Made by a program: the position numbers and the translations under genes. The notes beneath the pieces were generated by a model. That model saw only the letters and a list, made by a program, of their open reading frames with translations, was not told where the DNA came from and did no database searches. DNA of 64,000 bases from Gammaproteobacteria bacterium (GTDB taxonomy: Bacteria; Pseudomonadota; Gammaproteobacteria; Steroidobacterales; Steroidobacteraceae), in contig VGTW01000003.1 in the NCBI GenBank assembly GCA_016874555.1, positions 1-64,000 of the forward strand, read 5' to 3'. Below are positions 10,829 through 24,360 of the stretch, in pieces. Each line of letters starts with the position of its first letter. The first letter of the stretch is position 1.

Positions 10829-13128
<2,300 letters not shown>

Positions 13129-13239
13129 GGCCCGCCACGCAGGCGAGGGACTGCCGGTCGGCCTGCCGACGGAGCGCTTTCGAGTATCATTTGCGCCCCG
13201 GGGTACGTTCTGCCCCGCAGCCAGTTTGACGAGGTCGAC

Positions 13240-14838
13240 ATGCCCCTGACGATAGGTGTCCTGCGGGAAACCTTTGCCGGTGAAAAGCGCGTGGCCGCAG
13301 CTCCCGAAGTGGTCGAAAAGCTGCTCAAGCTCGGCTTCGGTGTCTGCGTCGAGTCCGGTGCCGGCGAGGCCGCAAATTTCAGCGATGCTGCGTTTACCGC
13401 AGCAGGGGCAAGCATTGCTGCCAGCGCGAGTGAGCTGCTGGCCACGTCCGACATCGTGTTCAAGGTACGCGCCCCGTCTACGCAAGAAGTCGCAGCGATG
13501 CGACCGGGTACCACCTTGATCAGCTTCATCTGGCCGGCGCAGAACCCGGAACTCATGAAGCAGATGGCCGAGCGTCGTTTGACCGTGCTGGCCATGGACA
13601 GCGTGCCGCGAATTTCGCGTGCTCAAAAAATGGACGCGTTGTCGTCCATGGCCAATATTGCCGGCTATCGTGCTGTCATCGAGGCTGCGCATCACTTCGG
13701 GCGATTCTTTACCGGGCAGATCACCGCTGCGGGCAAGGTGCTACCGGCCAAAGTATTCGTCATCGGTGCGGGTGTGGCAGGCCTTGCGGCGCTCGGCGCT
13801 GCGGTCGGACTCGGCGCGATCGTTCGCGCCAACGATACGCGCCCGGAGGTCGGCGATCAGGTGAAGTCGATGGGTGCTGAATTCGTGCCCGTCGATTATC
13901 AGGAAGAAGGCAGCGGCGTTGGCGGCTATGCCAAAGTCATGAGCGAGGGCTTTCAGAAAGCGCAGCGCGATGTATTTGCCAAGCAGGCCAAGGACGTCGA
14001 CATCATCATCACGACGGCGCTCATTCCCGGCAAGCCAGCCCCCAAATTGATCACGGCAGACATGGTTCGTTCGATGCGGCCGGGTAGCGTCATCGTCGAT
14101 CTGGCCTCGGAGCAGGGCGGTAACTGCGAACTGACCGTGCCGGGCGAGGTCGTGGTGCGTGAGGGCGTGACGATCATCGGTTACACCGATTTGCCGAGCC
14201 GACTCTCGAAGCAGGCGTCGACGCTGTATGCCACCAATTTGCTGCGGCTTACCGAAGAACTCTGCAAGACCAAAGATGGCAACATCAACGTCAATTTTGA
14301 AGACGAGGCTATCCGCGGAGCGACGGTAATCAAGGAAGGCGGGGTAACTTGGCCGCCACCACCGCCGCGACTTTCAGCGGCTCCGCCACTGGCGAAGGCT
14401 GCTGCCGTCACGGCGCCTGCCGCAGCAAAGAAATCTTCCCATGGGCACGGCGGTGGCGGCGAGCCCATGTCGGGCCAGTCACTTGCCGGTGTCTTTGCCG
14501 TAGGCGCTGCGCTTTTCTGGTTGATTGGTGCTTATGCGCCCGCCTCGTTCCTCGGTCACTTCACGGTCTTTGTGCTGGCCTGTTTCATTGGCTACATGGT
14601 GATCTGGAACGTTACGCCATCGCTGCATACGCCATTGATGAGCGTGACCAACGCCATTTCCAGCATCATTGCCGTTGGCGCCATCGTGCAGGTCGCGCCA
14701 CCCTTGAGCGAGGGGGTGACTGATCGACCCGATGCGCTGATTTTAGGTCTTGCCGTAGCGGCGCTTGCGCTGACGGCGATCAACATGTTCGGCGGCTTCG
14801 CCGTGACTCGTCGCATGCTCGCGATGTTCCGCAAGTAA
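13240..14838 (+). CDS. pntA: NAD(P) transhydrogenase subunit alpha
   Basis: IGVLRETFAGEKRVAAAPEVVEKL, GAGVAGLAALGAA, C-terminal TM segment. Confidence 0.95.
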   Translation: MPLTIGVLRETFAGEKRVAAAPEVVEKLLKLGFGVCVESGAGEAANFSDAAFTAAGASIAASASELLATSDIVFKVRAPSTQEVAAMRPGTTLISFIWPAQNPELMKQMAERRLTVLAMDSVPRISRAQKMDALSSMANIAGYRAVIEAAHHFGRFFTGQITAAGKVLPAKVFVIGAGVAGLAALGAAVGLGAIVRANDTRPEVGDQVKSMGAEFVPVDYQEEGSGVGGYAKVMSEGFQKAQRDVFAKQAKDVDIIITTALIPGKPAPKLITADMVRSMRPGSVIVDLASEQGGNCELTVPGEVVVREGVTIIGYTDLPSRLSKQASTLYATNLLRLTEELCKTKDGNINVNFEDEAIRGATVIKEGGVTWPPPPPRLSAAPPLAKAAAVTAPAAAKKSSHGHGGGGEPMSGQSLAGVFAVGAALFWLIGAYAPASFLGHFTVFVLACFIGYMVIWNVTPSLHTPLMSVTNAISSIIAVGAIVQVAPPLSEGVTDRPDALILGLAVAALALTAINMFGGFAVTRRMLAMFRK

Positions 14839-14850
14839 GAGGCTGCCGAC

Positions 14851-16266
14851 ATGTCCGAAAATCTCGCTACTGTTGCTTATCTCGGCGCCGCCATTCTCTT
14901 CATCATGAGTCTCGGCGGTCTGTCGAATCCCGAGACCTCGCGGCGCGGCAATCTCTACGGCATGGTGGGCATGGCCCTCGCGGTTCTCGCCACTGTGCTT
15001 GGTCCGCGGGTCGATCTGGGTGCGGGACTGCCGTGGATCGTCGGCGCCTTGGCCATTGGTGCTGCCATCGGTTTGTATGCGGCGCGTACCGTGCAGATGA
15101 CGCAGATGCCCGAGCTCGTTGCCTTGATGCACAGCCTCGTGGGCCTCGCCGCTTGCTTTGTCGGCTTCGCGAGTTACGTCGACACCTCGATCGTCTACGA
15201 GGGCGCCGAAAAAGCCATTCACGAAGTCGAGATTTACATCGGCATCCTGATCGGTGCTGTGACGTTCTCGGGCTCGGTCATCGCATTCGGCAAGCTGTCG
15301 GGCAAAATCAGCGGCAAACCGCTGCTATTGCCCGCGCGGCACTGGCTCAATCTTTTGGCCTTGCTGGTGGTGATCTGGCTTGGCGTGCAGTTTGTTGCAG
15401 CGCCGAGTATCGAGGCGGGGATGATGCCGCTACTCATCATGACGGTCATCGCGCTGCTCTTCGGCATACACATGGTAGTCGCCATTGGCGGTGCCGACAT
15501 GCCGGTCGTGGTGTCGATGCTTAACAGCTATTCGGGTTGGGCTGCTGCGGCCACGGGCTTCATGCTGGCCAACGATTTGCTGATTGTCACCGGTGCGCTT
15601 GTCGGCTCATCGGGCGCCATCCTCTCCTACATCATGTGCCGCGCCATGAACCGCAACTTCGTCAGCGTCATTGCCGGTGGCTTCGGCACTACCGGCGGTA
15701 CGACGCCTGCAGCCGCAAGCGGGGCGCAGCCCGCAGGCGAGGTGATATCGGTAAGCGCCAGCGAAACGGCGGAGATGCTGCGTTCGGCACGGAACGTCAT
15801 CATCATTCCGGGTTATGGCATGGCGGTAGCGCAGGCGCAGCATACGGTCTACGAAATCACCAAACTGCTGCGCGAGAAAGGCGTGAACGTGCGCTTTGCC
15901 ATTCATCCGGTCGCAGGGCGCATGCCTGGGCACATGAATGTGCTGCTCGCCGAAGCCAAAGTACCGTACGACATCGTGCTCGAGATGGACGAGATCAACG
16001 ACGATTTCCCGGGTACCGACGTGTCGATCGTGATCGGCGCGAACGATATCGTGAATCCGGCCGCTGAAGATGATCCGACGAGCCCGATCGCCGGCATGCC
16101 CGTGTTGCAGGTCTGGAAGTCGAAAACTTCGATCGTGATGAAGCGCTCGATGGCTTCGGGTTATGCGGGCGTCGACAACCCGCTGTTCGTCAAGGACAAC
16201 AACCGCATGCTCTTCGGCGATGCAAAGAAAATGCTCGATGAGGTACTGGTGGCGCTGAAGAGCTGA
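14851..16266 (+). CDS. pntB: NAD(P) transhydrogenase subunit beta
   Basis: Multi-TM N-terminus and [59 protein letters not shown]. Confidence 0.97.
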
Positions 16267-16290
16267 GAGGCGCCGATTTCGCGTTCGCTG

Positions 16291-17535
16291 CTAGTCGTAA
16301 AGCAATGCGCGTTGTCTTGCGATGGCGAACTCTTTGGTGTTCGACAGCCAGGAGTTTTCTATCGCGGCGATATCCATCCCGGCCTCGAGCTGTTGACGCA
16401 AGCTCAGACTTCCCCAGTGTGTGCCAATGGCCCGATCTTCGCGAAATACGATGCGTTCCGGATATAGCCTGCGTAGTGTGCTGAGGATCGCAACCGCCGA
16501 GCGCAATGGTCGGTAGGCCGACGGATGGGTAATGCGCAGGCGGACGCCCTGCATCGGCGCATCGCGATACTTGCCATAAAACGGCTTGTAGTGGATGGCC
16601 TGGAAAAGTACGCCCGGAAGCTGCAAGGCCTGCAGCGACTCTTCGAGCCGGGCGGCATCCAAAAACGTCGCGCCGATGATTTCAAACGGCATCGTTGAAC
16701 CGACACCCTCGTTAATATCTTTGACCGTCGAGGCCACCATACCGGTAGTGGTGTACAGATAGGCTTGGGTTACCGAGGGAACATGGGGCGAGGTGATGCT
16801 CCAGATGAGGCCTGTGTCATCCCAGCTCATCGAGCGTCGCCAGCCGCGCATCGGCACCACACGCAGATCGCAGCCGATGCCGAGTTGGTCATTGAAATAG
16901 CGACCCACTTCGCCGAGCGTCATGCCATGCGTCACTGGCACCGGACCCCAGCCGATAAAGCTGCGGAAGCGATCTTCGACGAGCGTACCCTCAAAGTTCA
17001 GCCCACTCAGGGGATTCGGCCGATCCAGGACCACGAGCGGAATACGCGTCGCAGCGCATGCATGCAGTGCTTCCCCAAGCGTTGAAATATACGTGTAGGT
17101 GCGCGAACCAATATCCTGAATATCGAAAAGAATCACTTCGACGCCAGCCAGCGCCGTCTTCGAGGGGCGCTTTTCTTTGCCATAGAGACTCACTACGGCG
17201 ACGCCGGTCTTCGGATCACGCCCGTCAGCGATGGTTTCGCCAGCGGGAACTTCACCGCGGATGCCGTGCTCAGGACCAAACAGTCTGATCAAAGACAATC
17301 GCGAATCTCCGGCGAGCCGATCGACTGTCGGCACCAGGTTGCCGTCGACGCCAGACGGGTTGGTGATCAGTCCCACGCGCTTGCCCGCCACCAGTTCGAG
17401 ATAAGGGCTGCCCGGCGCTAGTAGAACGTCGATTCCGAGTTCCACCTTGCGCTGCTCGGCCGATAGGCCTGGCAGCGAAGTCAGCAGTGACCAGACCAAT
17501 AAGAAAGCGGCGGAGAGTTTCGAGCGGTGTTTCAT
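16291..17535 (-). CDS. DUF1343 family protein (NamZ-type exo-beta-N-acetylmuramidase)
   Basis: LVAGKRVGLITNPSGVDGNLVPTVDRL, LFGPEHGIRGEVPAGETI, LFDIQDIGSRTYTYISTLGEALHACA; likely start at Met MKHRSK with signal peptide. Confidence 0.88.
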   Translation of the reverse strand: MKHRSKLSAAFLLVWSLLTSLPGLSAEQRKVELGIDVLLAPGSPYLELVAGKRVGLITNPSGVDGNLVPTVDRLAGDSRLSLIRLFGPEHGIRGEVPAGETIADGRDPKTGVAVVSLYGKEKRPSKTALAGVEVILFDIQDIGSRTYTYISTLGEALHACAATRIPLVVLDRPNPLSGLNFEGTLVEDRFRSFIGWGPVPVTHGMTLGEVGRYFNDQLGIGCDLRVVPMRGWRRSMSWDDTGLIWSITSPHVPSVTQAYLYTTTGMVASTVKDINEGVGSTMPFEIIGATFLDAARLEESLQALQLPGVLFQAIHYKPFYGKYRDAPMQGVRLRITHPSAYRPLRSAVAILSTLRRLYPERIVFREDRAIGTHWGSLSLRQQLEAGMDIAAIENSWLSNTKEFAIARQRALLYD

Positions 17536-17545
17536 CTGTACAAAA

Positions 17546-18706
17546 TCATGCCTTGAAGTACCAGCGTCGTCGGTGTAGCCATTCTGCCACAAGCCAATAG
17601 ACCAACAGTGTCACCACTGCAAACAGGAAAGAGCCAAGTCGGGGATCGGCTGACAACGGCGCAAAGAATTCGCGATGCAAGCGAGAGAGTAGCGTCACGT
17701 ACTGCGGATTACCTGCCAGGTCAGTACTCTCTTCGAAGCGGATCAGTGCAAGGGTTCGCGGTACGAGGCCGGTGAGTGCGAAAATCAGCAGGGCATTGCG
17801 GCCAAACGCCTCACAGCCGCGCAGCAACGGTTCGATCAATAGATGCTGCCATCGCCATCGGTCTAGGCACTGCAGCAGCACGGCAATCGATAGCGTCGCC
17901 AGCCCCGTCGTCAACAGTGCGTAACTCGACGTCCAGAGTTTTTTGTTGATCGGCATCAGCTCGTGTGCGAATGAGCCGATTACGGCGGCAACTATGGCGA
18001 TCAACAGCAGGTCGCGAACGAGGGATTTCGCTTGCTGACGTTGCAATAAAAAGTGGCCGACTGCGTAGCCGAGTAGCACCTGAGCGATGGCTGGAGTGGT
18101 ACTTGCAAGCCCCTCGGGGTCGAAGGGCACACCTTCGCCGCGGTACAGGTGAGATTCACCGAGCAGCACTCGATCCAACGTGGTACCAAAGAAACCCTCG
18201 AGTGAATACGGGTCGACTCCATGGGCGAAAGCGACACACGCCCACCAATAGCCGATCAGCAAAAATGCGCTGCAAAACCAGGCGGCACGTACACCGCCGC
18301 TACGCACGATCAGAGCCGCGCACGCCCAGCACAGGGCGATCCGCTGTAAAACCCCCATGATGCGCAGCGTTTCGAACTCTTTGAACTGCAGGCTGCCATC
18401 CGCTCCCCACTTGACGAAGGGCCAGACATTGAGCAACAGACCGATACCGAATATCAGCAGCGTTCGACGTGTCCAGCGCTTCCAAAATTGGGTGTTGCTG
18501 GTGGTGCGCGTCGGGGTTAGTGCAATAGCGTTACCTACTGCAAACAAAAAAAATGGAAAAACCAGATCAGTGAGTGTCCACCCGTGCCAAGTCGCATGTG
18601 CAAGTGGCGGATAGAGACTCGCCCATGAGCCCGGATTATTCACGAGGATCATCAGGGCGACGGTCGCGCCGCGAAACACATCCAAAGTTCGGTTGCGATC
18701 GGTCAT
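17546..18706 (-). CDS. NagX/heparan-alpha-glucosaminide N-acetyltransferase-like integral membrane protein
   Basis: RNRTLDVFRGATVALMILVNNPGSW...WHGWTLTDLVFPFFLFAVGNAI; multi-TM. Confidence 0.8.
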   Translation of the reverse strand: MTDRNRTLDVFRGATVALMILVNNPGSWASLYPPLAHATWHGWTLTDLVFPFFLFAVGNAIALTPTRTTSNTQFWKRWTRRTLLIFGIGLLLNVWPFVKWGADGSLQFKEFETLRIMGVLQRIALCWACAALIVRSGGVRAAWFCSAFLLIGYWWACVAFAHGVDPYSLEGFFGTTLDRVLLGESHLYRGEGVPFDPEGLASTTPAIAQVLLGYAVGHFLLQRQQAKSLVRDLLLIAIVAAVIGSFAHELMPINKKLWTSSYALLTTGLATLSIAVLLQCLDRWRWQHLLIEPLLRGCEAFGRNALLIFALTGLVPRTLALIRFEESTDLAGNPQYVTLLSRLHREFFAPLSADPRLGSFLFAVVTLLVYWLVAEWLHRRRWYFKA

Positions 18707-18829
18707 GGCGGGCGCTGATGTCGAAAAGTGACCGTGGGTCGGGCGAGAGTCCACCGCAAACGATATTGGCACCAAGCGATCCATTCGTCGACCCGCCTGC
18801 TTTGCTGCGGATCGGCTAGAGTGTCAGTG

Positions 18830-19630
18830 ATGAGATTTTCGGTGGCACAGGTGGATGAGTTCTTTGCTCAAGGATGGACGGTCGTGGGGGGGCTGTTCAG
18901 CCTCGATGAGATGCGCACGGCCCGGGCGGCATTCGAGCGACTGTATGGCGCGGCGCAGGTTTTGCGTAGCACCCAAGACCATGAAGGCGCCTATTTCGTG
19001 CTCGAAGCCCCGCCCAAAGGCGAGGTCATCGTCAAGCGGGTTGTATGGGCCGGAGGCGCAGAGCCTGACCTGCTGGCGCTCGGCGCTGATCGGCGCTTGA
19101 TCGAGCCCGCACTCGATCTGCTCGGCAGCGACCATTGCGAGCAACTGCTTTGCCAGGCGCATTTCAAGATGCCGCGGGATGGGGTCTCCTTCGATTGGCA
19201 TCAGGATGTGCAGCACCGCGACAAGGGCCCGGGCACTTGGCGGGATCTCAACGGTCGCGGCTCCTACGTGCAGACCATCATGCTCATCGATGACATGACC
19301 GAGGCTAATGGTCCGTTGAAGTTCATTCCTCGCAGCGCGGTCCGCGGTAGCGATACGTTGCGCTTGTCTGCCGAGTCCTATGACTACAACATACCGATGG
19401 GTCGCACTGACACGCCAGCGTTCTTCGATGAGTCGCAAGCCGTGACTATCACCGGTCGTGCAGGAAGCGTTCTATTCTTTGGTCCTTACGCCATCCACGG
19501 CAGTATGGCGAACGAATCGGACGTTCCACGTCGCATACTCATCAACGGTTATGCGTATCCTGGTGCGAACGGTCGCGTCTATCCGGGCCGCGGCTCGGGA
19601 CGGACCCTGCGCCGGTCGGCGGTCGCCTAG
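18830..19630 (+). CDS. Phytanoyl-CoA dioxygenase (PhyH) family protein
   Basis: FSVAQVDEFFAQGWTVVGGLFS, SFDWHQDVQHRDKGP (HxD), distal HGS motif near FFGPYAIHGSMANES. Confidence 0.85.
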   Translation: MRFSVAQVDEFFAQGWTVVGGLFSLDEMRTARAAFERLYGAAQVLRSTQDHEGAYFVLEAPPKGEVIVKRVVWAGGAEPDLLALGADRRLIEPALDLLGSDHCEQLLCQAHFKMPRDGVSFDWHQDVQHRDKGPGTWRDLNGRGSYVQTIMLIDDMTEANGPLKFIPRSAVRGSDTLRLSAESYDYNIPMGRTDTPAFFDESQAVTITGRAGSVLFFGPYAIHGSMANESDVPRRILINGYAYPGANGRVYPGRGSGRTLRRSAVA

Positions 19631-19679
19631 CGGGGCGATCTGACGTGGCTACCTAACGATTCTCTGAGGTACATCGGTC

Positions 19680-21185
19680 GTGGGCAGCAATTATTTTCAT
19701 GTACTCGACTGGACGATGGTTGGGGCGTATTTCGCCCTCGTGACCTGGATCGGTCATCACGTCAAAGATTTACAGGGCAGCACACGCGAGTACTTCCTCG
19801 GTTCGCGCTCTTTGCCTTGGTATGCCGTGTCGATGTCGATCGTCGCCACCGCAGTGAGCGGCGTTACCTTCATCGGTGTGCCGGCGCTGGTATTCGCACA
19901 AGGCGGCGACTTTCGCTATCTGCAGTTCTGTTTGGCGGGGCTTATTTCCAAGACCATTCTCGGACACTTCATTTTGCCGCGTCTGTACGAAAAGAATTAT
20001 GCGAGTCCCTACGACTTCATCCGCGATAAGCTCGGCCCGGTGTTCGGCAAACTGTCGGCGCTACTCTTTTTCATTGGTGCGGTGCTCGGTCAGGGTGTTC
20101 GAGTGTTTGCGGTCGCGCTCGTCCTCGAGTTGCTTACCGGCCTCGATTTTGCCGGTTGCGTCGCGCTCAGCGTAGGTGTGGCCGCGCTCAGCACCATGCT
20201 CGGCGGAATTCGCGCGGTGGTTTGGTCCGACGTGCTGCAGTTCTGCATGTTCGTCGCCGCCGGTTTAATGGCGATTCTTTTTGTTACGCAAACCTTTCCC
20301 GATGGCCTAACTGGCTTGTTGTCAGCTGCGGATTCTGCGGGCAAGACGCATGTCATCGAGTGGAGCACCGACCCGCGCGTCAACTTCACGCTTTGGGCCG
20401 GTGCCCTCGCGATGCCGTTCCAGAATCTTGCGGCCTACGGCACGGATCAGTTAAACACGCAGCGCATGCTGTGTTGTCGATCAGTACGCGAGGCGCGTAT
20501 TGCGCTTTATGTCAGCAACTTCGGCGAGCTGGTGGTGGTGTTATTTTTGATGGTGGGCGTCGCCCTTTGGGGTTATTACAGCTTGAACGCGGTCGACCCG
20601 GCGTTTGCACCGCTGATCGCCGAAAACGTCGATCGTATTTTCCCGACATTTATTTTGTCCGAGATGCCGACTGGACTACGCGGATTCATGGTGGCAGCGC
20701 TGTTTGCGGCGGCAATGTCGAGCCCAGTGCTCTCGGCGCTTTCCGAGACCAGTATCACCATGTTTCACGCGGGGCATCGCAACGGGACGCTAGACGAGTC
20801 GAGGGCGGTGATACTGTCGCGCATTCTGGTGCTCGTTTGGGCGTTTGTTCTGGGTGGCTTCGCCTTGCTGCTGGTAGGCTCCGACGAACGGTTGATCCCG
20901 CTCGCTTTCGCCATGACGGCGTATACCTATGGTCCGATGCTCGGACTTTTTCTGCTCGCCTTGTGTGTCTCGCGCGAACGGATCCGTAATGCGCCGCTTG
21001 GTGTCGTGGTTTCACTCATCGGGGTCTTACTGGTCCACAACGCACAGTTTTTCGGGTTTACCAGTGACCGTGAGTTGGTGGCATTTCCTTGGCTATTTCC
21101 GCTCGGGGTAGCGCTTTGCGTGGGTTTCGCCCTCTTACCCATTGGAAGGGGACTCGGCTATCCTCCGCGTCATGAGTCACGGTAG
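19680..21185 (+). CDS. Sodium:solute symporter (SSS) family transporter
   Basis: Multi-TM; GSRSLPWYAVSMSIVATAVSGVTFIGVPALVF, AMSSPVLSALSETSITM; GTG start. Confidence 0.88.
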   Translation: MGSNYFHVLDWTMVGAYFALVTWIGHHVKDLQGSTREYFLGSRSLPWYAVSMSIVATAVSGVTFIGVPALVFAQGGDFRYLQFCLAGLISKTILGHFILPRLYEKNYASPYDFIRDKLGPVFGKLSALLFFIGAVLGQGVRVFAVALVLELLTGLDFAGCVALSVGVAALSTMLGGIRAVVWSDVLQFCMFVAAGLMAILFVTQTFPDGLTGLLSAADSAGKTHVIEWSTDPRVNFTLWAGALAMPFQNLAAYGTDQLNTQRMLCCRSVREARIALYVSNFGELVVVLFLMVGVALWGYYSLNAVDPAFAPLIAENVDRIFPTFILSEMPTGLRGFMVAALFAAAMSSPVLSALSETSITMFHAGHRNGTLDESRAVILSRILVLVWAFVLGGFALLLVGSDERLIPLAFAMTAYTYGPMLGLFLLALCVSRERIRNAPLGVVVSLIGVLLVHNAQFFGFTSDRELVAFPWLFPLGVALCVGFALLPIGRGLGYPPRHESR

Positions 21186-21408
21186 GGTCACGCCGCAACT
21201 GCGGCATTGGATCGTCAAACAAATCGAAGCCGGCAAAAGCCCGGAGTCAGTGCTTGAATTAATGATTCGCAACGGCTGGCCGGAGGGCGCTGCGCTCGAT
21301 GTAATCGAGCGCACGCTGCGGATGCGTGTGGCGCAAATCAAGTCCGTTGAAAACGCCGCTGCCCAGACGACCGACGCCAAGGGCCCGTCGCCGGCGCCCG
21401 AGGTTTAA
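21172..21408 (+). CDS. Small hypothetical helical protein
   Basis: MSHGRVTPQLRHWIVKQIEAGKSPESVLELMIRNGWPEGAALDVIERTL; start overlaps SSS gene end; 3 bp before next gene. Confidence 0.65.
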   Translation: MSHGRVTPQLRHWIVKQIEAGKSPESVLELMIRNGWPEGAALDVIERTLRMRVAQIKSVENAAAQTTDAKGPSPAPEV

Positions 21409-21411
21409 CAA

Positions 21412-22014
21412 ATGCGCGCGTCCCGCGCAGATATAGATGCGCTACCGATCTTTCCGCTGATCGATCCGACGTTTCTCACCATTGACGAACATGCTGCTTT
21501 ACTCGACTTCGCGGAGCGTAATGACGCCGCCTTCGGCATGCCTTATGCCGGCGATTATTGGAAAGGCCGGACGCTCACGCCCACGGATATCGACGATGAG
21601 CATATCCGCGGAATATTTCGCCAGACTCGCGATCGGGCTATCGCCAAACTCACCGCCGTGCTGACCGAGCAGCTTGGACCGCAGCCGCCGCTTTACTCAG
21701 ACCTCATCAACTACGCGCGCTGGCCGCCCGGTTACGAGTTAGAACCGCATGCTGACAACGAAAATCCGCGTGCGGCTCCGCACCCTTATCCTTGGCGTGA
21801 CTTCGCTACGGTCATTTACTTGAACGATGACTATGATGGCGGTGAGATCCACTTCCCGAATCTTGGGCTCGAGCTTAAGCCCCGACCGCGTATGCTAGTG
21901 GTGTTTCCAGGCACGATGTTTTTCCTGCATGGAGTACGTCGAGTGACACGCGGCATGCGACATACCATCGCGTCTTTCATTACTTTCGACGCTGACCATC
22001 GCTTCGAATTTTAA
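21412..22014 (+). CDS. 2OG-Fe(II) oxygenase (prolyl 4-hydroxylase-like)
   Basis: LEPHADNENPRAAPHPYPWRDFATVIYLNDDYDGGEIHFPNLGLELKPRPRMLVVFPG...HGVRRVTRGMRHTI: HxD...H...R motif. Confidence 0.85.
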   Translation: MRASRADIDALPIFPLIDPTFLTIDEHAALLDFAERNDAAFGMPYAGDYWKGRTLTPTDIDDEHIRGIFRQTRDRAIAKLTAVLTEQLGPQPPLYSDLINYARWPPGYELEPHADNENPRAAPHPYPWRDFATVIYLNDDYDGGEIHFPNLGLELKPRPRMLVVFPGTMFFLHGVRRVTRGMRHTIASFITFDADHRFEF

Positions 22015-22032
22015 GCTGGAACGTGTTGTCAT

Positions 22033-22806
22033 ATGATCAAGGTCCCGGATAATACTATCGCTGCTATTCCCTATGACGATTTTTATCGTGGAAAGCACGC
22101 GCAGGTCTATTTCAATCTGCGTGGGCGTAATAAGCGCGACTGGTTCTCGCGTCATGCGTATTTTTGCCTGCCGCTGGTGATCGGTAATCAGTACGGGCTT
22201 GCTATGCGCTCCTTGTGGCGCGCAACCTTTCTTTGGAATGGCGGTCCGGACCCTGCGGATACCACAGTCAAAATACACAATAACGAAGACGAGATCCGTC
22301 ATGGTAATCTGCAGACCATGGTCTCCAACTTCGGGCTTGGCATCGTCACTGTTCAGACGGCCTTCGCGTTGCGCACGCCGCCCGGCATCAACCTCATGAC
22401 CTTACAGCCACCTAATTATTTCATTGATGGCTTGCAGAATATGACGGGTGTGGTCGAGACTGACAACCTACGCCGCGACTTCACCTTCAATCTCAAAATT
22501 ACCCGCACGAATTTTCCGGTGGAGATTGAGGTGGGCGACGTCATCGCCGGTGTCTTGCCCACACCCCGCCAGTTTGTCGAAAACTTCGATATCGTCGATG
22601 GGTGTACTCTATTCACGCCTGAGCAGATCGCTGCCGAGCAGCAGGCAGCGCGTGACTTCGGTCGCGAACGTACCGAACGCGATCCGCTACGACCCGACGG
22701 CGTCGGTCGTCGATATCACAAAGGCGAAGATGTATACGGAAACAAATTCGTACACTCGCATCAAACGCGACTAAAGAACGGATCTGAACGTTGCGACGGC
22801 GACTAG
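22033..22806 (+). CDS. DUF6065-like protein of unknown function
   Basis: Recalled family features: CLPLVIGNQYGL, WNGGPDPADT, FGLGIVTVQTAFALRTPPGINLM, PPNYFIDG...TGVVETDNLRRDFTFNLKITRTN. Confidence 0.65.
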   Translation: MIKVPDNTIAAIPYDDFYRGKHAQVYFNLRGRNKRDWFSRHAYFCLPLVIGNQYGLAMRSLWRATFLWNGGPDPADTTVKIHNNEDEIRHGNLQTMVSNFGLGIVTVQTAFALRTPPGINLMTLQPPNYFIDGLQNMTGVVETDNLRRDFTFNLKITRTNFPVEIEVGDVIAGVLPTPRQFVENFDIVDGCTLFTPEQIAAEQQAARDFGRERTERDPLRPDGVGRRYHKGEDVYGNKFVHSHQTRLKNGSERCDGD

Positions 22807-22857
22807 CTACTATCAATAAACTTGATGGCGATTAGCTGCTGGCAGCCTTCGCCGAGT

Positions 22858-24360
22858 TCAGCTGCTCGCCCAGCCGAGTGAGCGTTTGACCGCGCGCGAC
22901 CACTCGTGCATTCGTACAGCCGCCGCATCGCGGGACATCGTCGGCTCGAAGCGACGCTCTACGCGCCAGCGGGCCGCGATCTCGTCGGTCGATTTCCAGA
23001 AGCCGGTCGCGAGGCCCGCAAGATAGGCCGCGCCCAACGCCGTGGTCTCGGTCACAGTAGGTCGGATCACCGGCACGCCTAAAAGATCTGATTGAAACTG
23101 CATCAAAAAATCATTACGTGAGGCGCCGCCGTCTACCCGCAGTTCGTACAACGGTACCGCCGCATCTTCCTGCATGGCGAGTAACAACTCTGCACTCTGA
23201 AAGGCTATTGCTTCGAGCGCAGCACGGGCGATATGTCCGCGCGTCGTGCCGCGCGTGATGCCCGCGATCGAGCCGCGCGCGAACGGATCCCAATGCGGAC
23301 TGCCGAGACCAGTGAACGCCGGAACTACGTAAACCCCACCATGATCGGCAACGCTGGTGGCCAACGCCTCGATTTCTTCGGCATGATTCACGAAGCCAAG
23401 ACCGTCGCGCAACCATTGCACGACGGCACCGCCGATAAAAACGCTACCCTCCAAGGCATATTGCAGCGGTCCGCGCCGCTCGCCTGTGCCGGGCGTGCAC
23501 GCGATAGTGGTGAGCAATCGATGATGCGAAGCAAGCGGTCGTGTTCCCGTATGCATCAGCATGAAACAGCCAGTACCATAGGTATTCTTTGCCATGCCAG
23601 GTTGCAGGCAAGCCTGCCCAAACAGCGCCGATTGCTGATCACCGGCAAGACCGGTGAAGGGTACTTCGGCATCGCCGACGGCGATCGTGATACCAGCGTC
23701 AAACGATGATGGTAGCACTCTTGGTAGCACAGCTCTCGGGATACGCAGCAAGTCGAGCATGCTCTCGTCCCACTCGCCGTCGAGATTGAGCAGTAACGTG
23801 CGGCTCGCGTTGGTGACATCGGTAATGTGGTATCTGCCATCCGACAGCTTCCAGGCGAGCCAACTGTCTATCGTGCCGAGGCACAGCTCGCCGCGCTCAG
23901 CCCGGACGCGTGCGTGCGGCACGTGATCCAATAGCCATGCGAATTTGGTACCCGAGAAATACGGATCGAGTAGTAAGCCAGTGCGCCGCGTGACTTCTGC
24001 CTCGTGTCCGGCGGCGCGTAGTGCGGAGCACGCCTCTGCGGTGCGGCGATCTTGCCAGACAATGGCCGGGGCAATGGGCAGGCCGGTCGCACGATCCCAA
24101 AGAACCGTTGTCTCGCGCTGATTGGTAATCCCGACTGCGGCAACGTCCCCGGGTTTCGCGGCCGCCTTTTTCAAAACGTCATCGATGGTTGCGCGCTGGG
24201 TGCTCCAGATCTCGAGTGCGTCATGTTCAACCCAGCCCGATTGCGGGAAATGCTGCGTGAACTCGCGAAGCGCCGTCGCGACGATATTACCAGCGTGATC
24301 GAAAAGAATGGAGCGTGAACTCGTCGTACCTTGATCGAGGGCGAGGATCCAGCGGCTCAT
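22858..24360 (-). CDS. glpK: Glycerol kinase
   Basis: [24 protein letters not shown]...[42 protein letters not shown]. Confidence 0.97.

Follow-up and report, generated by a model that had tools for sequence, protein, structure and literature searches.

The window analysed here is a stretch of 64,000 nucleotides (positions 1 to 64,000 of contig VGTW01000003.1, assembly GCA_016874555.1) from a gammaproteobacterium of the order Steroidobacterales, and it contains a block of five genes, all on the + strand. The first encodes a PhyH-type 2-oxoglutarate (2OG)-Fe(II) dioxygenase of 266 amino acids (18830..19630; PF05721, 77.9 bits, cut-off 22), followed by a sodium:solute symporter of the SSS family of 501 amino acids (19680..21185, GTG start; PF00474, 107.2 bits, cut-off 22.8). 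A small open reading frame (ORF) encoding a 78-residue protein comes next (21172..21408, with an alternative upstream TTG at 21142); it matched no Pfam family and is conserved beside the fourth gene, which encodes a prolyl-4-hydroxylase (P4H)-like 2OG-Fe(II) oxygenase of 200 amino acids, consisting of the catalytic domain only (21412..22014; PF13640, 44.6 bits, cut-off 27). The last gene encodes a DUF6065 protein of 257 amino acids that belongs to a phage-type subfamily (22033..22806; PF19541, 128.1 bits, cut-off 26.6). The PhyH and SSS genes are separated by 49 bp, the SSS gene and the small ORF overlap by 14 bp, and gaps of 3 bp and 18 bp precede the P4H and DUF6065 genes, respectively. The gene order and the very tight spacing described in a first-pass annotation of this sequence were thus borne out by coordinates, strand, and matches over curated Pfam cut-offs, and, given the spacing, transcription as one unit is plausible in the window's lineage. 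A promoter scan at chance level and a terminator scan barely above chance were uninformative.

Comparison with relatives shows purifying selection on all five genes, with ratios of nonsynonymous to synonymous divergence (dN/dS) of 0.03-0.10 in the four large genes and 0.13-0.41 in the small ORF, which is therefore regarded as a real gene. The window's genome assembly comprises 2.36 Mb in 219 contigs and is estimated to be 87% complete; the assemblies compared with it are metagenome-assembled genomes (MAGs), with one genome per species.

Two modules within the block

The block almost certainly consists of two independent modules placed end to end, namely, module A (PhyH and SSS) and module B (the 78-residue protein, P4H, and DUF6065). 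Outside the window, the two were found side by side only in L077 and L078, its closest relatives. In two genomes of the same genus (G073 and G138), they lay on different contigs, and the PhyH-SSS pair was also present in families in which the P4H-DUF6065 unit was not found. The first-pass annotation had proposed one shared pathway, in which the symporter would import a small molecule, both oxygenases would hydroxylate it, and the small protein and DUF6065 would assist. A common strand, tight spacing with an overlap between the SSS gene and the small ORF, and retention of the entire block in two close relatives agree with that proposal, but each module is conserved without the other, and the commonest neighbors of the P4H-DUF6065 pair in phages included neither an SSS nor a PhyH family. 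Synteny has largely refuted the single pathway, which now appears very improbable. Recurrent linkage of DUF6065 to both 2OG oxygenases and SSS symporters had been proposed as a check; it held for the oxygenases, in the phage-type subfamily only, and failed for the symporters, for which linkage to DUF6065 was unseen outside the window's clade. Because of this, the symporter is unlikely to feed the P4H-DUF6065 enzymes. Of the undescribed pathway that was suggested, an undescribed hydroxylase system is supported, and a function shared by the five genes is not. The two modules are perhaps co-transcribed in the window, and the locus as a whole is likely to combine a phage-derived two-component hydroxylase with a neighboring muropeptide-uptake pair.

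Between the window and L077, divergence climbs sharply along 14851-24360: synonymous divergence (dS) is 0.02 in PhyH, 0.14 in SSS, and 0.30-0.37 in the genes of module B, and identity is 98.5-98.8% for NamZ and NagX but 92.8% for GlpK. This gradient points to a recombination junction within the gene for the symporter. The two symporters end differently at the C-terminus (501 vs. 498 amino acids), so that the small ORF is overlapped by 14 bp in the window (21142-21185) and by 4 bp in L077. L077 also carries transposase-like ORFs, identified by eye, between GlpK and a nitroreductase (12681-13819).

The P4H-DUF6065 pair in bacteria and phages

A scan for window-type DUF6065 over 84,980 species returned eight bacterial loci, and in all eight the small ORF, P4H, and DUF6065 genes were adjacent in the same order (49-94% identity), while the genes upstream changed. 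PhyH and SSS preceded module B in L077 and L078 only, a sterol-desaturase-like ORF (read by eye, not by Pfam) preceded the small ORF in L079, L080, and G073 (L026), and the upstream gene pointed away in L082, L083, and L084. L081 is not independent of G073:C4, nor L083 of G138:C110, and L083 is nearly identical to L084; about eight distinct bacterial lineages, the window included, carry the module. These carriers are MAGs labeled as gammaproteobacterial, mostly from lakes. One public MAG labeled Klebsiella pneumoniae (L081; CAMCBU010000004.1) has the module B locus of the genus at 77% identity, and its label is probably wrong. In L084 (2828-3608), the DUF6065 match is split over two frames and looks frameshifted or misassembled.

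A scan of viral contigs with a DUF6065 alignment retrieved 216 relatives; the 80 best were retained and examined. Among these, the DUF6065 homologs were 42-58% identical to the window protein, which resembles ordinary bacterial DUF6065 proteins at only about 30% identity, and 79 of the 80 contigs had a same-type P4H in the fetched stretch, DUF6065 alone having been the query. For 56 distinct DUF6065 proteins, the P4H gene was located within 60 bp upstream in 40 cases, within 1 kb upstream in 10, and downstream in five, and one had none. Furthermore, a single 456-residue ORF in L192 (4359-5726) matched both PF13640 and PF19541 over cut-off and constitutes a P4H-DUF6065 fusion. Terminase matches in eight of 40 contigs tested (five over cut-off, the contig of phage L133 included), together with terminase, portal, virion-protein, and tail-fiber-type genes near the pair, support the phage nature of these contigs. 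A tblastn search of GenBank phages with DUF6065 from the window and with a family member from Sinorhizobium gave no match; the relatives lie in uncultivated phage contigs. In L206 (874-5729), two tandem DUF6065 genes follow a P4H, with two more P4H-like genes upstream.

The ordinary bacterial DUF6065 proteins belong to the same Pfam family (PF19541) and share its invariant residues (C45, L46, P47, N52, G55, W68, E142, D144, N153, R179, Y228, H243, and others). The phage-type proteins differ from them by a long branch (2.18) and by being paired with P4H in every bacterial locus found, whereas no P4H was detected near ordinary members in 31 loci (two weak family matches; 20 loci with several kb of flank and 11 with about 1.5 kb).

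Phylogenetic trees of 75 DUF6065 and 50 P4H sequences both placed the bacterial clade within the phage radiation as the sister of phage L133, with Shimodaira-Hasegawa-like approximate likelihood ratio test (SH-aLRT) values of 93 for DUF6065 and 99 for P4H; the DUF6065 tree was rooted on the ordinary bacterial members across a long branch, and its root is uncertain. Capture from a phage is the simplest reading because both trees nest the bacterial clade among phages with the same sister. We infer from this nesting the direction of transfer, by which lake bacteria probably took the P4H-DUF6065 pair from a phage.

The P4H retains its catalytic residues. The iron ligands H113 and D115 were found in 49 of 50 sequences each (one fragment does not cover them), and H173 and the 2OG-binding R183 were found in 50 of 50, so that the HxD...H motif and the 2OG-binding R/K position are invariant in bacterial and phage homologs wherever covered. 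The enzyme is very likely an active oxygenase because of this invariance. Its best Pfam family was PF13640, and its best solved match was prolyl 3-hydroxylase 1.

A first AlphaFold model of DUF6065, built from 19 sequences, was poor (predicted local distance difference test, pLDDT, of 58) and was not relied on; it already pointed to dUTPases. The second, from 75 sequences, reached a pLDDT of 89.9 and a predicted template modeling score (pTM) of 0.83. All of the top 50 PDB matches of this model in Foldseek were dUTPases (best E = 1.4e-4, probability 1.00, TM-score to the target 0.68), and a viral structure library returned unnamed phage proteins and dUTPases. The likeness to the dUTPase superfamily lies in the overall fold and in a motif 3-like stretch, GV(V/I)ETD...GD.IA, the only part aligned by profile comparison (GVVETDN vs. 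GLIDSDY). Compared with dUTPases, DUF6065 has extra elements at both ends (257 vs. about 150 amino acids), lacks motifs 1, 2, and 5 of the five conserved catalytic motifs, and has different invariant residues, and it is not a canonical dUTPase. DUF6065 had no Pfam dUTPase match, and a sequence search of the PDB with its profile yielded nothing convincing. The model leads us to conclude that DUF6065 is dUTPase-like in fold but has another active or binding site.

The 78-residue protein showed 40% identity over 65 amino acids to the N-terminus of an annotated 2OG-Fe(II) oxygenase from Eleftheria terrae (WP_301260358.1), with W13, G21, G35, and W36 common to both. This fused form rests on one example, as a plasmid search with the Eleftheria N-terminal domain returned Eleftheria alone. 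The protein may represent a helper domain that split off from the oxygenase, and in bacteria it would supply in trans the domain that is fused to an oxygenase in another bacterium. A 75-residue ORF upstream of P4H in L133 was ruled out as its homolog, having no profile match.

Possible function of the P4H-DUF6065 unit

P4H-like oxygenases of PF13640 have already been reported as frequent auxiliary genes of phages, cyanophages included (PMC3037559, PMC9301287), and the use of prolyl 4-hydroxylase by viruses "remains cryptic" according to a Baltic Sea virus survey (PMC9301287). The P4H of module B resembles these known viral enzymes in its HxD...H iron ligands, 2OG-binding arginine, and small single-domain architecture, and differs in having a dedicated DUF6065 partner gene, which is fused to it in one phage. 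The literature searched contained no description of the P4H-DUF6065 pair, nor any paper naming DUF6065.

P4H and DUF6065 can be taken with considerable confidence as a functional unit. Their fusion, linkage, and agreeing evolution suggest that they form a physical complex; pairwise distances within the two families correlated (r = 0.84; 0 of 2000 permutations as high), in a comparison that had no third gene as a control. In such a complex, P4H would carry out Fe(II)/2OG-dependent hydroxylation, and DUF6065, with its dUTPase-like fold devoid of the canonical motifs, would act as an obligate partner that binds or presents the substrate. A polypeptide is tentatively proposed as the most likely substrate, which in phages would be a protein of the virion or the host. 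A broader proposal sees the pair as a two-component hydroxylase, hitherto undescribed and common among phages of the environment, whose substrate-binding subunit is a dUTPase-fold protein turned to a new use. On this view, a group of freshwater Gammaproteobacteria acquired the pair by capture from a phage, and the domain that another bacterium has fused to its oxygenase was added as a gene of its own; for this proposal as a whole, the evidence is evenly balanced.

Several observations weigh against this reading of module B. A minority of phages have P4H and DUF6065 hundreds of bases or more apart, and two genes that did no more than move together in phages would also show linkage and agreeing trees. 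The comparison of DUF6065 and dUTPase profiles was weak (probability 21.9, E = 0.001 for one comparison). In the phage loci examined, the 78-residue protein had no recognizable counterpart at the threshold used and so does not appear to be part of the ancestral unit. The phage neighbors are varied and do not fix the substrate; methyltransferases were the commonest (7/146), followed by other 2OG oxygenases, RuvB-like ATPases, glycosyltransferases, and virion proteins. Collagen-like Gly-X-Y runs of eight or more repeats occurred in seven phage-locus proteins and were poor in proline, and a collagen-type target in phages is unsupported given how few and how proline-poor these runs are. In one phage group (L139, L146, L149, L151, and L153), large proteins with almost proline-free Gly-Thr-Asn repeats are encoded two genes upstream of P4H.

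The dUTPase-like fold, seen in two structure libraries, and the motif 3-like stretch also fit a different chemistry, in which the oxygenase hydroxylates the base or sugar of a (deoxy)nucleotide-type ligand bound by DUF6065, the substrate being a nucleotide or nucleic acid. Two further observations point the same way: the oxygenase has sub-threshold similarity to Tet_JBP (E = 0.0077 in the window and 1.1e-4 in the fused phage protein), and some phage pairs lie near genes for a RuvB-like ATPase or a DNA ligase. However, dUTPase motifs 1, 2, and 5 are missing, the oxygenase scores best as PF13640 with a prolyl 3-hydroxylase as its best solved match, and the nameable neighbors in most phages are not nucleotide-metabolism genes, which together leave a nucleotide substrate unlikely. 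Alternatively, the two proteins could be independent, each useful to phages and adjacent only as parts of a moving cassette that bacteria inherited passively. The pair does look portable, as most phage neighbors vary, and ordinary bacterial DUF6065 functions with no P4H nearby, but the fusion in one ORF, the very high linkage, the agreeing trees, and the strong purifying selection in bacteria make independence rather improbable.

The PhyH-symporter pair and peptidoglycan genes

Module A is preceded in the window by two genes on the - strand, divergent from PhyH. One encodes a NamZ exo-beta-N-acetylmuramidase (16291..17592; PF07075, 259.4 bits; PF20732, 128.2 bits), and the other encodes a NagX-like, HGSNAT-type membrane acyltransferase (17546..18784; PF07786, 31 bits, over cut-off; NF046061 NagX, 144.4 bits, under the 480-bit cut-off). 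PhyH and SSS orthologs adjoined each other in five other genomes of the order (46-73% identity), and the pair was conserved across three families. Its neighbors included a beta-lactamase/NamZ fusion, a beta-lactamase-like gene, and an LD-carboxypeptidase with an outer-membrane barrel in G073; an LD-carboxypeptidase and a TonB receptor in G138; N-acetylmuramoyl-L-alanine amidases (Amidase_2) with a peptidoglycan-binding domain in G137 and G117; and a beta-lactamase-family gene in G008. Elsewhere in the class, no SSS ortholog was found at E<=1e-70 among 321 sampled genomes, the window's own apart. A beta-lactamase domain is fused to NamZ_N and NamZ_C in one 795-residue protein of L106 (4046-6433, - strand).

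The nearest solved relatives of PhyH, leucine hydroxylase (5nch) and ectoine hydroxylase (4mhr), are both distant, and its score against the NCBIfam equivalog for the ectoine hydroxylase ThpD (38 bits) fell under the cut-off of 336.5, which places it outside that family. The symporter belongs to the SSS family by PF00474, scored just under the cut-off for TIGR00813 (171.2 vs. 184), and had a putative sodium:solute symporter (5nv9) as its closest solved structure (E = 2e-37). Judged by gene context, module A appears to go with cell-wall scavenging genes. The symporter would import a peptidoglycan-derived solute, and PhyH would oxidize that solute or a derivative.

In Tannerella, a sodium symporter imports N-acetylmuramic acid (MurNAc), a carrier that the same paper elsewhere assigns to the major facilitator superfamily (PMC5790795). 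The window symporter shares with this transporter, MurT, a sodium-symporter-type carrier in a peptidoglycan-salvage setting, a likeness drawn without direct sequence comparison; MurT sits with MurK and MurQ, whereas the window symporter is linked to a PhyH dioxygenase. From this context, the window symporter is a candidate MurNAc transporter. The MurNAc-6-phosphate etherase MurQ had no match over cut-off in any of 16 genomes of the order (weak partial matches only), and AnmK was not found in the window's genus. PhyH could be imagined to replace MurQ by oxidative cleavage of the MurNAc lactyl ether, yielding N-acetylglucosamine and pyruvate. Dioxygenases that cleave aryloxypropionate herbicides carry out akin chemistry. 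The position of PhyH-SSS beside NamZ and other peptidoglycan genes, the missing MurQ, and the Tannerella precedent favor this idea, but genomes in which no PhyH was found lack MurQ as well, and PhyH members act on many substrates. An AmgK-like kinase in the window genome (G000:C31; NF045759, 213.7 bits on a 221-residue fragment, under the 550-bit full-length cut-off) gives MurNAc another route and weakens the case for PhyH as the sole possible one. Such an ether-cleaving role for PhyH is improbable. Because the PhyH-symporter pair recurs beside genes for peptidoglycan degradation, muropeptide use may include a 2OG-dependent step.

For module B, a likely fold can now be assigned to a Pfam family of unknown function (PF19541). 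A partner that is conserved, has a recognizable fold, and is fused in one case offers a defined complex for purification and a way toward the substrate of the cryptic prolyl-hydroxylase-like genes of phages.

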